Source of the DNA: Deltaproteobacteria bacterium
GTDB lineage: Bacteria; Desulfobacterota; Deferrimicrobia; Deferrimicrobiales; Deferrimicrobiaceae
Length of the DNA stretch: 46,721 nucleotides
NCBI GenBank assembly: GCA_016218975.1
Contig: JACRCO010000078.1
Coordinates: 1-46,721, forward strand
Direction of reading: 5' to 3'
Shown: in pieces, positions 22,325-28,331 of the stretch
Position numbering within the stretch: the first letter of the stretch is position 1
How the letters are laid out: the number at the start of each line of letters is the position of its first letter
Translations under genes and position numbers: made by a program
Notes under the pieces: model-generated
Told to the model about the DNA's origin: nothing
The model's database searches: none
What the model saw: only the letters and a program-made list of their open reading frames with translations

Positions 22325-23335
22325 CTAAGGAATCAGGACTGCCCTAAGGCGCACTTTCCCCACGCGCAGTTTTTGCAGGACCTCGTTGGCATTATCGAGA
22401 GGATGGCGCTCCACCATGGGGGCGATTCCGTGATCGGCGGCGAATCGCAGCATGGCATCCATGTCGTCCCGCGTGCCGATGACGGAGCCGCAGATATTTT
22501 TTTGCCCCGTAATGAGCCCGGCGGGGATCAGCGACGCTTTTTCCGCGATGGCTGCCAGAACCACCAGCGTTCCGTTTGGCCCGATGCCCGGGATGCATTG
22601 CTCGAACAGCTTTGCGGATATTCCCGTCAGCAGGATAAGGTCCGCTCCTCCCATTGCGGAGAGGCGTTTCCCGATTTTTTCCTTTTCGGTGTCGACAATC
22701 TCCCGGGCGCCCATCTTGCGCGCGAGGCCGTATTTCTCCTCACCCCGCAGAATCGCCACGACCGTCGCTCCCATGGCCGACGCCATCCGTATGCCCAGGT
22801 GTCCCAGGCCGCCGATCCCCGCGACCGCGACGGTTTTCCCCGCAAGGTTGCCCGCCCGGCGCAACGGCGCGAAAACCGTGATGCCTGCGCAAAGAAGCGG
22901 CGCCGCGTCCACGAGGTCGAGCCCTTCGGGTATCATGTGCGTGAAAGCCGCCGGCGCCGTGACGTATTCGGCATAGCCGCCGTTCACGGTGACGCCGGTG
23001 CTTCTCTGGACCGCGCAGAGCATTTCCGCTCCGGCGCGGCACGGGGGACAATCGCCGCAGGCGTACTGCATCCACGGCACACCCACCCTGTCGCCCGGCG
23101 AGAGGCCTTTCACGCCTGCGCCCGTCCTCTCCACGATTCCCGTCACCTCGTGGCCGGGCACGATTGGCAGGGGCGTCCCCCAGTCCTTCCAGTCTCCATC
23201 GACGAGATGGAGATCGCTGTGGCATACCCCGCAGGCGGCCACCCGGATCAGCGCTTCGTCCGGGCCCGGATCCGGAACGGGCAGCTCCGACATGACCAGC
23301 GGTTTTCCGAACGATTCGCATACTGCGGCTTTCAT
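22325..23335 (-). CDS. zinc-dependent alcohol dehydrogenase (MDR family)
   Basis: This 336-residue medium-chain dehydrogenase would oxidise alcohols or reduce aldehydes with NAD(P). The catalytic zinc site is visible in ACGVCHSDLHL and PGHEVTG, with a third ligand in APLLCAG. The structural zinc ligands are in CGDCPPCRAGAEMLC. The Rossmann motif is VAVAGIGGLGHLGIRMASAM. The gene has AAGGAG before the ATG at 23335 and lies upstream of the OsmC gene in transcription order, after a 54-base gap. The substrate is not known. Confidence 0.9.
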   Translation of the reverse strand: MKAAVCESFGKPLVMSELPVPDPGPDEALIRVAACGVCHSDLHLVDGDWKDWGTPLPIVPGHEVTGIVERTGAGVKGLSPGDRVGVPWMQYACGDCPPCRAGAEMLCAVQRSTGVTVNGGYAEYVTAPAAFTHMIPEGLDLVDAAPLLCAGITVFAPLRRAGNLAGKTVAVAGIGGLGHLGIRMASAMGATVVAILRGEEKYGLARKMGAREIVDTEKEKIGKRLSAMGGADLILLTGISAKLFEQCIPGIGPNGTLVVLAAIAEKASLIPAGLITGQKNICGSVIGTRDDMDAMLRFAADHGIAPMVERHPLDNANEVLQKLRVGKVRLRAVLIP

Positions 23336-23389: not shown

Positions 23390-23860
23390 TTATTCCGGAA
23401 GTTCGGCGATTTCCGCGGTGTCGCTCAGCTCGATGGCGCCCTTTACGCTCATGGCGCCCGGACAGGCCGTAATATATGTCGCCAGCGCATCGCGGGCTTC
23501 CCCGGTTTTTCCCTTGGGGACCATCATGGTGTACTTTACCCGGATTTTAGTTATCCTCAGGACGCCGTCGACGTCCTCGATGTCTCCCTCGACGTCCGCA
23601 CGGTACCGGTCGCCGAATGTGGGGATCTTTTTACCGGCCAGCACCGTGGCCAGCGTGCCCATCATTCAGCCGCCGACGGCGCCGACGATGTGATCCAGCG
23701 TGGCAGCGTGCTCCTTTTCCGGCTCGACCTTGTAGAAATGCTTGATGCCTCCGTGTACGCCGTAGTACACAGGCTCCGCGAAGCCTTCGATCACGGCCTT
23801 CCGGGTCGGGCCCTTTTCGCGCGTGATCGAGATGCGGGAAGTATGAACAAGTCGTCCCAT
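23390..23860 (-). CDS. OsmC-family protein with probable selenocysteine (UGA at 23668-23666)
   Basis: Two frame-matched halves, MGRLVHTSRISITREKGPTR...TLDHIVGAVGG and MMGTLATVLAGKKIPTFGDR...ITACPGAMSV, are joined by a single in-frame UGA. In OsmC relatives this position (GGC before the long helix) is the peroxidatic Cys, so the product is read as a 156-residue protein with Sec65 and resolving Cys133, a spacing near the family norm. Directly after the UGA comes a hairpin fitting the bacterial SECIS rules. OsmC/Ohr proteins reduce hydroperoxides. The start at 23860 has GGAGG 5 bases upstream. No sequence change other than the UGA is needed, which argues against a pseudogene. SelB, SelA and tRNA-Sec are not in the window. 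Confidence 0.8.
23633..23654 (-). promoter_or_regulatory. putative bacterial SECIS element
   Basis: On the minus strand, 11 bases after the UGA, GCTGGCCA (23654-23647) pairs with TGGCCGGT (23640-23633) as an 8-bp stem with two G-U pairs, closing the loop CGGTGC. The loop begins 19 bases after the UGA and has G in its second position, within the ranges described for bSECIS elements. Confidence 0.65.
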
Positions 23861-24148
23861 CGTTTCCTCCATTGCGCCGTTTCATCCTAAGAATACCCGA
23901 CTCCGCGATTCGGTTCATCCGAATATACCAACCGGAAATAATTCCCGTTTTTCGATAATTCCGGATCGCACCCGATTCGACCGCATATCCATCTACGTGT
24001 TTTGCCTGCAAAAAAACCGATTGTTTTGCATATATTTACTGGCCGCCGGGGAATACGGAAAGGCAATTAATTGTCGCGGGCGTCAATTAAATAGTGGAAT
24101 AATAGCGATCAAGTATTGGGAAGCCGGGGGTGGCTTCCCGGAGGTTTT

Positions 24149-26890
24149 TTGGCCGCCATTCTTGCCATTTCCGCCGCGCTTCAGTTCCTTGCGGCGTTCC
24201 TCTCCGTCCGGTTCGTTTACCATCGGCGGCTGGGCCGCCCCTGGCTGCTGGTTTCCGTTGCATTGATCATCCTCGGCGGACTTCGGCTTTCCACGCTGTT
24301 CGCGGGATATTACGACCCGGACCAGGCCATTCTCGATTCGGGAATCGAAACCATCTCCCTTCTCGTAGCCCTCCTGCTGGTCTGCGGATTCGCGCTGACG
24401 GAACGGTGGTTCCTCCTTAAGGAGCGGCTTGAAGGAAGATTCATGCTGCTTTCCGAAGTCGACCGTTCCCTGGTAGGAATTCTCGACGAGAACCGGATCA
24501 TGTCCGTCGTGTGCGAGGTGTTGTGCCGGCAGAAAGGGTATCGTCTCGCCTGGATCGGCTCCGGAGAGCCCGACGGCAGCGTGCGGATAGTGAAATCCGC
24601 CGGAAAGGGCGAGGCCTTCCTTTTCGAAGCGGGGATCCGCTGGGACGACACCCCAAAGGGTCAAGGCGTCACCGGAACGGCGCTGCGGACCGGCAAGCCA
24701 TGCGTCGTCAACCGGGTTGATGCCGATCCGGGGATGGCCGAGTGGAAAAGCGCTCTGTCGGAAGGCGGCATACACAGGGCCGTTTCCGTCCGCATCGAAT
24801 CCGGCGGGCAGCCGGCTCTGGCTCTGACCGTTTATGCGGACTCGCGGTCCGCGTTCTCCGGCCTGGAAATCGAAGGGTTCCTCGCGCTTGCGTACCGCGT
24901 CGGCCAGGCGATCCAGAGCGCGAGGAGGCACGAATTCTTCGTAGCTGCGAAAAGCGCCTACGACGATCTATTGAGGACGCAAAGGGACGGGGTGATCCTT
25001 GTGAGGGGGGGGCGGATCGTGCGGGTTAATCCTTCCGCGTCGTCCATGCTTGCCTATCCGGATGGGGAGGAACTGGTCGGGGCGGATCCGGCTATCATCC
25101 TGAAGGAGCCGGAGGCTTGCCCGGAACATTCCGGCGTCCTGCGATGCGGCACCGGGGAGGGAGGAAGGTTCAAGGGGGAAGCGGAGATAGCCAGGAAGGA
25201 CGGTTCCGTATTCTTCGGCGAACTCGCCGTTACGTGGCTGGCAAGGACCAACAGGAAATCGAACTTCTTTCCGAAGTACGACGGTCCGCTCGGCATGATA
25301 ATCCTGAGGGACATCACCGGCAGGAAATTGGTCCTGGAGGACCTGCGAAGGCAGCGTGACTTCTCCGAGAAGATGCTCGACATCGCCGGGGTCCTCATCG
25401 CCCAGATGAATCCCCGGGGCGAAATCGTCCTGATAAATCGTCAGTTCGAAGAGATGACGGGCTACGCGTGGAGCCAGGTCTCCGGCCAGGAGATGGCGGG
25501 CCTCCTGATTTCCGGCTCGTGCCGGGCGGCCTACCGAAGGAACTTCGACCGGATCGTCGAAGGCGAGGTTTCGCAGAACGTGGAATTTCCTCTCGTGACC
25601 ACCGCCGGGGAGGAGCGGCTGGTCGTCTGGAATCATGCCCTCTTGAGGAACCCGGAGGGAAACGCGATTTCGGTCGTCGCCACGGGCACCGACGTCACGG
25701 AAAGCCGCCGCCTCGAACGGCAGATCATACAGATGCAGAAGATGGAGGCGGTGGGGACGCTCGCGGGAGGCATCGCGCACGACTTCAACAATATCCTCAC
25801 GGGAATCATGGGCAACCTCGATCTTGCCGCGAAAGTCGTGCCGCCGGAGTCGCTCGCGGCGATTCCGGTGCAGGAATCGATCAAGGCGTCGGAGCGGGCG
25901 GCGAATATGGTCCGGCAGCTTCTCGACTTTTCACGGCGGTCCCCCTCGGAAAGGAGGGCGATCGATCTCGGGAAGGTGGGCCGTGAGGTTGCGGATCTCG
26001 TCGCACAGACGATCGACCGGCGAATAGAAATGGATATCTGCGCCGCGGATGGCTTATGGCTCGCGATGGCCGACCCCAACCAGGCGCACCAGGTCCTGAT
26101 GAACCTCTGCGTGAACGCCAGGGACGCGATCATGGAGCGGGCGGAAGGGAAGCAGTCCGGGGAACCGCCCGACGGCGGATACAGGATCCGGATAGTCACG
26201 AGTAACTTCACGGTGGGCGACGAGTATTGCCGCCAGTACCCTTACGCGCGCAAGGGCGACTACGTCGTCGTGTCTATTTCGGACAACGGGGCGGGAATGG
26301 ACGAGGCGACGCAGCGCCGGGTGTTCGAGCCGTTCTTCACGACCAAAAAGCTGGGGAGGGGCACCGGACTCGGTCTTTCCACCGTGTACGGAATCGTCAA
26401 GCAGCACGAGGGTTGGGTAAACCTCGAAAGCCGGCCGGGCAAGGGGACCACGTTCCACGCGTACCTGCCGCGGGCGGAAGCAGGGGCGGAGGAGGAAAAA
26501 TCCCGGGCGGGGGAAGTCGCCAGGGAAAAAATGGGCAAGGAGACGATCCTTCTCGTGGACGACGAGGAGATGATTCGCACGCTCGGCCGGCAGGTTCTCG
26601 AGGTGCACGGTTATTCGGTGCTGGTCGCGGCGGACGGCCAGGAGGCCGCCGACCTGTATTCCGCGCACCGCGACCGGATCGACCTCACGATCCTGGACCT
26701 TTCGATGCCGTACCTGTCGGGGAGCGAGGTCCTGGAGCGGATCCGCGGGATGAACCCGGGAGCCAAGGTCATAATGTCCAGCGGGCACCCGTCAAGGGAG
26801 ACGTCACGCGCGTCCGCTTTCCTGCCGAAACCGTACCGCGCCGACAAGCTGACCCGCATCGTGCGGGACGTCCTCGACCGTTCGTCCTAG
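24149..26890 (+). CDS. membrane-bound hybrid histidine kinase (GAF-PAS-PAS-HisKA-HATPase-REC)
   Basis: This protein of about 913 residues has three hydrophobic N-terminal segments (AILAISAALQFLAAFLSVRF, LLVSVALIILGGLRLSTLFA, ETISLLVALLLVCGFALTER). They are followed by a GAF domain (about 100-250), two PAS domains (about 285-420 and 425-545), a HisKA domain with the phosphoacceptor in LAGGIAHDFNNILTGIMGNL (about 550), an ATPase domain (SISDNGAGMDEATQRRVFEP, GTGLGLSTVYGIVKQHEG) and a C-terminal receiver (TILLVDDEEMIRTLG, LTILDLSMPYLSG). The TTG at 24149 has GGAGG 4 bases upstream; another TTG at 24116 is possible. The phosphorelay partner is not visible. It is convergent with the acs operon, 17 bases away. 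Confidence 0.88.
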   Translation: MAAILAISAALQFLAAFLSVRFVYHRRLGRPWLLVSVALIILGGLRLSTLFAGYYDPDQAILDSGIETISLLVALLLVCGFALTERWFLLKERLEGRFMLLSEVDRSLVGILDENRIMSVVCEVLCRQKGYRLAWIGSGEPDGSVRIVKSAGKGEAFLFEAGIRWDDTPKGQGVTGTALRTGKPCVVNRVDADPGMAEWKSALSEGGIHRAVSVRIESGGQPALALTVYADSRSAFSGLEIEGFLALAYRVGQAIQSARRHEFFVAAKSAYDDLLRTQRDGVILVRGGRIVRVNPSASSMLAYPDGEELVGADPAIILKEPEACPEHSGVLRCGTGEGGRFKGEAEIARKDGSVFFGELAVTWLARTNRKSNFFPKYDGPLGMIILRDITGRKLVLEDLRRQRDFSEKMLDIAGVLIAQMNPRGEIVLINRQFEEMTGYAWSQVSGQEMAGLLISGSCRAAYRRNFDRIVEGEVSQNVEFPLVTTAGEERLVVWNHALLRNPEGNAISVVATGTDVTESRRLERQIIQMQKMEAVGTLAGGIAHDFNNILTGIMGNLDLAAKVVPPESLAAIPVQESIKASERAANMVRQLLDFSRRSPSERRAIDLGKVGREVADLVAQTIDRRIEMDICAADGLWLAMADPNQAHQVLMNLCVNARDAIMERAEGKQSGEPPDGGYRIRIVTSNFTVGDEYCRQYPYARKGDYVVVSISDNGAGMDEATQRRVFEPFFTTKKLGRGTGLGLSTVYGIVKQHEGWVNLESRPGKGTTFHAYLPRAEAGAEEEKSRAGEVAREKMGKETILLVDDEEMIRTLGRQVLEVHGYSVLVAADGQEAADLYSAHRDRIDLTILDLSMPYLSGSEVLERIRGMNPGAKVIMSSGHPSRETSRASAFLPKPYRADKLTRIVRDVLDRSS

Positions 26891-26907: not shown

Positions 26908-27585
26908 CTACTCTTTCAACGCCGACTTGATCGCGGCGCGGACGATGTATCCCGACAGGTGCATGATCGTGTCCTGGAGGTCGGGGTCGATCTCCATCGA
27001 CGCAAGGCAGGGATGATGGTGGTGGCGCAGCGCACCTGTATCGGGCGCCTCCGCGACACGCGTGCCGCCGAGGATGGAGGCGACGAACTTCGCGGAGCCG
27101 CAGGGAGCGTCCCGCAGCACCTCGACGGACCCGACGCGTTCGCCGTCCCTCAGGATACGGAACTTCGGCCGCCCGAACTTCGCGGAGAATTCCCGCAGCA
27201 GCGGATCCGGTCCGCCGTCGAACCCGCAGAGGGGACGCGGAAAGGCGGCGGCGACGCCCATGGCGGAGAGCCGCTTCCGTACCTGGTTTTCCAGCCCCGC
27301 CGGGCATGACGACCGGTCGTCCACCGCGGCAAGGACAGCCTTGGCGCCGCACCGCCCGGCGATGTCCGGTATGAGCTCCGCCGCGCCCGGCTTTTCGTGG
27401 AGGGAAACAAGCAGGTCCGCCGCCGGCAGGGTTGCCGGAAGGAACTCTTCCGGATCGTCGATCACGATCGGAAGCCTCGCGGGAAGCGTGAGCACGCGGA
27501 TCTCCCAATTCGCCGGACCGTATGCGCGGACATTTTCCGCAATTCGCTCGCCGTACCGGCCTTGCACCGAGAACAGGATCTTCAA
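26908..27585 (-). CDS. DUF166-family protein of the acs operon
   Basis: This 225-residue protein begins MKILFSVQGRYGERIAENVR and matches the DUF166 (COG1810) family, found mainly in methanogens and in bacteria with acetyl-CoA synthase genes. Other landmarks are ADLLVSLHEKPGAAELIPDI, VDDRSSCPAGLENQVRKRL and VASILGGTRVAEAPDTGALR. A few family members have been labelled thymidylate synthase, but I would not transfer that name. Its ATG overlaps the stop of the CooC-like gene by 4 bases, so it is the last gene of the coupled operon and may assist maturation or metal supply for the complex. Confidence 0.75.
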   Translation of the reverse strand: MKILFSVQGRYGERIAENVRAYGPANWEIRVLTLPARLPIVIDDPEEFLPATLPAADLLVSLHEKPGAAELIPDIAGRCGAKAVLAAVDDRSSCPAGLENQVRKRLSAMGVAAAFPRPLCGFDGGPDPLLREFSAKFGRPKFRILRDGERVGSVEVLRDAPCGSAKFVASILGGTRVAEAPDTGALRHHHHPCLASMEIDPDLQDTIMHLSGYIVRAAIKSALKE

Positions 27586-28331
27586 TTCGTCCTGCCGGCG
27601 AGCAGACCGCGGATCGCGCCGGCTACGGCGGCTGCGGCGGGCGAGGAGTCCGGGAGGTCGAGGAAGGAACGGCCTGCGTCCTCCCAGCCGGGAAGCGACG
27701 GATCATGCGGGATCTCGGCGAGCAGCGGCGCGGGAAAGGCCGATGGTTTCCCGGATGCGCCTGCGGCATACGGCCGGTTGAGAAGCAGCCAGGCTTTCCC
27801 GACGGGAAGGGAGAGATCGGAAGCCAATTCCAGGACCGCGCACGCAGCGGCCAATCCCCGCGGAGAAGGGTCGGCGACCAGGACGAGGTGGTCGATGCTC
27901 CGGAGGTTGCGCCGGGAGAGATGTTCCATCCCCGCCTCGTTGTCCACGACCACAGCGGCGTATCCGCCCGCAAGGCGCGCAAGCGACCTGCGAAGCAGGT
28001 TGTTCACGAAGCAGTAACAGCCCGGTCCCTCTCCCCGTCCCATCGATATGAGGTCGACGTCCTTTCCCTCCGAGACCCTTTGCTGGACCATCGCCTCGAG
28101 CCGTTCCTCCTTGGAAGTCGCGCCGCCGGGGGAATCCAGCAGTTCTTCCCTGATGGAGCCGAGCCCTTTAGGCGGCGGGATTCCGAGTAGGAGGTGAAGA
28201 TTGGCGTTGGGGTCGGCGTCCACCGCCAGCAGCGGGCGGACTCCCGATGCGAGCAGCGCGCGCAGAAGAAGGGCGGAGCAGGTGGTCTTCCCCGTTCCTC
28301 CCTTTCCCGCGACGGCGATCAGGAGGCTCAT
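27582..28331 (-). CDS. cooC: CooC/AcsF-like nickel-insertion ATPase
   Basis: This 249-residue ParA/MinD-type ATPase probably loads Ni into CO dehydrogenase or acetyl-CoA synthase. The deviant Walker A is VAGKGGTGKTTCSALLLRAL, the switch region is VDADPNANLHLLLG, GPGCYCFVNNLLR contains the CxC metal-binding pair typical of CooC, and VVVDNEAGMEHLSRR is the Walker B region. Start and stop both overlap neighbouring genes by 4 bases (ATGA). Its presence indicates that the complex made here is Ni-dependent, even though the CODH catalytic subunit is not in this window. Confidence 0.85.
   Translation of the reverse strand: MSLLIAVAGKGGTGKTTCSALLLRALLASGVRPLLAVDADPNANLHLLLGIPPPKGLGSIREELLDSPGGATSKEERLEAMVQQRVSEGKDVDLISMGRGEGPGCYCFVNNLLRRSLARLAGGYAAVVVDNEAGMEHLSRRNLRSIDHLVLVADPSPRGLAAACAVLELASDLSLPVGKAWLLLNRPYAAGASGKPSAFPAPLLAEIPHDPSLPGWEDAGRSFLDLPDSSPAAAAVAGAIRGLLAGRTN

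Follow-up and report, generated by a model that had tools for sequence, protein, structure and literature searches.

The window analysed here, a stretch of 46,721 nucleotides from a Deltaproteobacteria bacterium (Desulfobacterota; Deferrimicrobiaceae), contains on its minus strand a frame that reads through an entire OsmC-family protein except for one TGA triplet. Does this UGA encode selenocysteine (Sec), and what would the resulting protein do? The reading that we favour, to which we assign a probability of about 0.96, is that of a single OsmC/Ohr-fold selenoprotein, in which SelB and a bSECIS hairpin would direct Sec to the peroxidatic position, and which would act by a selenol peroxidase mechanism.

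The interrupted frame and its surroundings

A first-pass annotation of this DNA had described two halves of an OsmC protein in the same frame, split by UGA alone, at positions 23390-23860. The coordinates proved correct; the coding strand, which that annotation did not mention, is the minus strand. From the ATG at 23860 to the stop at 23390, the TGA at 23668-23666 is the sole interruption, and the frame is otherwise open. The protein joined across this codon matches the Pfam OsmC family (PF02566) with 34.2 bits, above the curated cut-off of 27.5, while no NCBIfam model matches it. A second in-frame ATG is found upstream, at 23872. Since this codon overlaps the Shine-Dalgarno region and the conservation of the homologues in a 20-row alignment begins only at the MG, the ATG at 23860 is the likelier start, in agreement with the earlier placement of Sec at residue 65. 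No promoter or terminator signal above chance was found in the vicinity of the gene. The features of the locus are collected in Table 1.

Table 1. Features of the selenoprotein locus and its flanks (window coordinates)
Feature	Position	Strand	Remarks
Zinc-binding alcohol/aldehyde dehydrogenase	22325..23335	-	54 bases downstream of the selenoprotein gene; Pfam and NCBIfam
OsmC-family selenoprotein CDS (predicted)	23390..23860	-	156 residues, Sec at residue 65; Pfam OsmC match
Putative resolving (second) Cys codon, CP motif	23462..23464	-	Invariant in the 20-row alignment
Predicted bSECIS hairpin	23633..23654	-	GCTGGCCA 23654-23647, loop CGGTGC 23646-23641, TGGCCGGT 23640-23633
UGA codon, predicted to be read as Sec	23666..23668	-	UGA kept in all window-clade relatives; Cys in Actinomycetota homologues
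Shine-Dalgarno GGAGG	23866..23870	-	5 bases before ATG 23860; sequence reading
Hybrid histidine kinase	24116-26890	+	Divergent from the selenoprotein gene; kept in several dehydrogenase-adjoined loci

Beyond the histidine kinase gene, a MinD/ParA-like ATPase gene (27582-28331, minus strand) precedes a DUF166 gene (26908-27585, minus strand; PF02593, 166 bits), their ends overlapping. At the other side of the window, positions 2047-2135 of the plus strand match the Rfam DUF3800-VII RNA (RF02967) with 37.7 bits against a gathering threshold of 36.2.

Fold, redox residues and proposed mechanism

An AlphaFold2 model built from the 20-row alignment (pLDDT 89, pTM 0.80) finds its best PDB matches in OsmC/Ohr structures, namely 2onf (Z 14.2), 1nye (Z 12.6) and 6eb4 (Z 12.5); indeed, the top 31 PDB rows are all OsmC/Ohr entries with Z above 10. 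E. coli OsmC (1nye, 1qwi) and the Ohr proteins (e.g., 6eb4 and 4xx2) share the fold of the window protein (Z 11-13); as in that protein, their first redox position lies on the central helix and their second Cys in a CP motif. For 1nye the relationship is also seen by profile comparison (E 0.004, profile positions 61-151), with Cys at the Sec column. On the other hand, these proteins carry Cys where the window protein has Sec, and the identity in the structural alignments is about 7-19%. The two redox residues of the window protein, Sec65 in the first long helix and Cys133 in the CP motif (69 and 137 in P0002 numbering), are invariant in the 20-row alignment. In Ohr proteins, which are peroxidases that use Cys, the active site holds a conserved Arg and Glu (PMC5962072). 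In our alignment Arg24 is invariant and Glu54 nearly invariant (P0002 numbering), and these residues could be the counterparts of the Ohr pair.

The likely function is that of a selenol-based peroxidase in which the CP cysteine resolves the intermediate, a mechanism proposed from the OsmC/Ohr fold and from the conservation of both redox residues. The pathway that we infer, from Sec insertion itself to the peroxidase activity, its substrate and its reductant, would be as follows. During translation, SelB with Sec-tRNA(UCA) would bind the hairpin directly behind the UGA, and selenocysteine would be inserted at the peroxidatic Cys position. Reaction of the selenol with an (organic) hydroperoxide would give a selenenic acid, and the conserved second Cys (CPxxxSV) would convert this into a selenylsulfide; finally, a dithiol donor would reduce the selenylsulfide.

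Alternatively, the protein could be a selenoprotein but not a peroxidase, its selenol serving in another thiol-exchange role that is perhaps tied to the neighbouring alcohol dehydrogenase. FTN_1133, a 14.7-kDa hydroperoxide-resistance protein, is reported to lack thiol-dependent peroxidase activity (PMC4069020); therefore, such resistance proteins need not be peroxidases. Furthermore, the dehydrogenase gene follows on the same strand, is a probable operon partner of the selenoprotein gene and may be functionally linked to it. The two genes adjoin each other in about 10 other loci (75-86% identity). However, all such loci with known placement belong to the same taxonomic family, the adjacency was not seen in the more distant loci, where the flanks are short, and both the fold and the two redox positions match those of Ohr/OsmC. 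We regard this alternative as rather unlikely and retain the selenol peroxidase as the preferred function.

Evidence for a selenocysteine codon

The UGA could also be a stop placed in an ordinary Cys-type OsmC gene by decay or by a sequencing or assembly error, and a fragmented metagenome assembly can indeed yield a UGA within an intact gene. The homologues speak strongly on this point. They were searched with a query carrying Cys at the Sec column, so that the search was unbiased towards TGA. Among 84,980 species genomes, an independent collection, 19 relatives with 44-87% identity were found, and all 19 have TGA at the Sec column. The UGA is therefore kept in every close relative, far more than expected by chance. 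Of the 395 host-phylum genomes, 36 contain a match of at least 115 bits, each with one TGA. Among the Acidobacteriota (the phylum of the Acidobacteria record L034, 297 genomes), one TGA is present in 26 of the 26 matches covering the site, one further match being a fragment without it. The Planctomycetota, to which the Planctomycetaceae record L037 belongs, contributed two matches, both with TGA, and the Actinomycetota (the phylum of the Thermoleophilia record L027) contributed 50 matches in 45 genomes, 42 of them with one TGA. Thus, UGA and never another stop occupies this site in about 100 independent genes of several phyla. The first-pass annotation had named random substitutions on both sides of the UGA in close relatives as evidence against its reading; instead, both flanks are conserved together with the UGA column. 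Decay or error would also leave unexplained a hairpin kept beyond the needs of the protein sequence (see below), and we consider this explanation ruled out by the conservation of the UGA across assemblies.

As a separate observation, L078 (G192:C20:12237-12371) matches the gene only in part (profile positions 3-47) and contains an in-frame TAA; it probably represents a decayed copy. No relative was found among viral contigs, and plasmids gave no match.

Eight of the Actinomycetota matches have no stop, and seven of them show Cys at the Sec column, for instance in SVAGCLIGTF. These Cys-type homologues (L112, L118-L122 and L124) match the same subfamily profile with 86-121 bits. Their Cys is located exactly at the Sec column, in most cases within CxxGT (CLTST in L121), and their C-terminal motif is CPNARSV or CGVARS. 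The resulting pair, GCLIGT in Actinomycetota versus GULLGT, is a Cys/Sec pair, the usual basis of selenoprotein calls, and confirms the expectation that homologues would have Cys at the UGA column. The Cys-type proteins differ from the window protein in having Cys and no UGA and in falling outside its clade. A maximum-likelihood tree was built from 98 sequences and rooted at the midpoint only. In it the window protein belongs to an all-Sec clade of 60 (support 99/92), and the Cys forms sit on the other side. In the eighth Actinomycetota match without a stop, L123 (G1418:C43:5569-6003), the reactive Cys is lost (IGVDHLGAL) and HSPCARS replaces CPNARS; this protein is possibly a non-catalytic derivative of the subfamily.

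The hairpin behind the UGA starts 11 bases past it and has an 8-bp stem and a 6-nt loop, with G at loop position 2 and the loop onset after 19 bases, precisely the geometry that had been annotated. Its energy as an isolated hairpin is -12.4 kcal/mol. The published bSECIS model requires a loop of 3-9 nt, a stem of 4-16 bp, G in the first two loop positions, a distance of 16-37 nt from the UGA and an energy of -7.5 or lower (PMC13188914); the window hairpin lies within all these limits, which bears out its claimed fit to bacterial SECIS ranges. Since the hairpin stretch is also coding, we used a control in which each gene was randomly recoded with synonymous codons at matched third-position GC. 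A hairpin that conforms to the model is present in 80 of the 84 distinct genes, and the recodings predict 11.6; the four exceptions in this simple scan include L032. For the window protein, an equally stable qualifying hairpin arises in only 0.5-1.3% of the synonymous recodings. Three genes of the window clade have T-A instead of C-G at pair 13/32 of the hairpin. In most Sec-OsmC genes of the more distant clades (the majority of L084-L136), the best hairpin is another one, about 7 bases further downstream, with the loop onset at 26 and a GGN loop, as in GGCGCGCT-GGA-AGCGCGCC. The protein has stayed conserved through this shift of the RNA element, a pattern that suggests selection for the presence of a bSECIS rather than an accident of codon choice.

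The draft genome of the host (2.95 Mb, 97.6% complete) encodes the whole Sec machinery on which the first-pass annotation had made its reading depend, SelB and tRNA-Sec above all. The tRNA-Sec scores 74 bits (gathering threshold 47), and ARAGORN likewise calls the anticodon TCA. SelA is found with 569 bits, SelB with 304 bits in a frame that runs off the contig end, and SelD with 322 bits and one in-frame TGA. SelD thereby provides a second in-frame UGA in a conserved protein of the host genome. This SelD (L038, G000:C3:20088-20882) is itself a predicted Sec protein, with the TGA within LSSCAGUASKLG. The host genome also encodes a separate OsmC protein of the Cys type (L001). SelA is present in 35 of the 36 host-phylum genomes that have the OsmC selenoprotein gene and was not detected in the remaining one (G355, 82% complete). 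As the base rate of SelA in this phylum is 355 of 395 genomes (90%), its co-occurrence with the gene is consistent with a selenoprotein rather than decisive.

A genome-wide reassignment of UGA (e.g., to Trp) or a Sec-free readthrough would require nothing beyond the in-frame UGA, but no positive support for it was found, several relatives of the gene terminate at UGA, the homologues show Cys and not Trp at the UGA column, and tRNA-Sec, SelA, SelB and SelD are all present; this leaves such readings with hardly any probability, and code reassignment is rejected on the conservation of the UGA and the presence of the Sec machinery. As far as sequence data allow, we consider the in-frame UGA confirmed as a genuine selenocysteine codon.

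Relation to published OsmC-like selenoproteins

OsmC-like selenoproteins were first reported in 2005 from the Sargasso Sea by Zhang et al., with three sequences and the motif UxxT (PMC1088965). The GOS survey listed five sequences, again UxxT (PMC2398784), and the same motif is given in reviews of 2022 and 2026, the latter of which treats different Sec motifs within one domain as distinct subfamilies (PMC13188914). The window protein resembles these proteins in its OsmC domain (PF02566), in Sec at the first redox position and in a bSECIS behind the UGA. However, its branch has U-[ML]-x-G-T with CPxxxSV instead of UxxT: in the window protein itself Sec is followed by MMGT (UxxG, with the T one position later). 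The claim that the family is already known thus holds in that OsmC-like selenoproteins have been published, but the window protein probably does not belong to the listed UxxT subfamily.

A Pfam OsmC search across the host phylum revealed, in addition to genes of the window type, two OsmC genes with TGA at the same site, both in genome G035. L143 (G035:C247:490-798), with AFULLTHVSLY, fits the published UxxT, and L142 (G035:C73:12451-12759), with GFUMFSQLTRY, is of a UxxS type. No pairwise BLASTP similarity between L143 and the window protein was detected, only a trivial profile match. Most likely, the published UxxT entry corresponds to the type of L143, and the lack of BLASTP similarity of this UxxT-type protein to the window protein argues for UxxGT as a separate subfamily. 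The separation from the published representatives MBR72571.1 and MCS5647933.1 is one that we infer from the published motif and from L143. On these grounds, we find it reasonably probable that the window protein represents an uncatalogued OsmC selenoprotein subfamily (U-[ML]-x-G-T, CPxxxSV), present in several phyla, with a main clade that is all-Sec as sampled, and distinct from UxxT. The protein is of a known kind, the OsmC selenoproteins, and its subfamily is widespread and apparently undescribed in published selenoprotein lists.

The first-pass annotation had anticipated that gene callers would split this gene in two, and this agrees with a frame interrupted only by a UGA that is read as a stop. 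Gene callers that treat UGA in this way split or truncate these genes, and a conserved predicted peroxidase is easily missed. In this sampling, the carriers of the selenoprotein are mostly uncultured, metagenome-assembled bacteria. Finally, the main clade, for which no Cys version occurs among the sampled genomes, offers a natural test of why lineages keep Sec over Cys in a peroxidase, and the Cys relatives of the Actinomycetota provide a matched comparison for the Sec clade.
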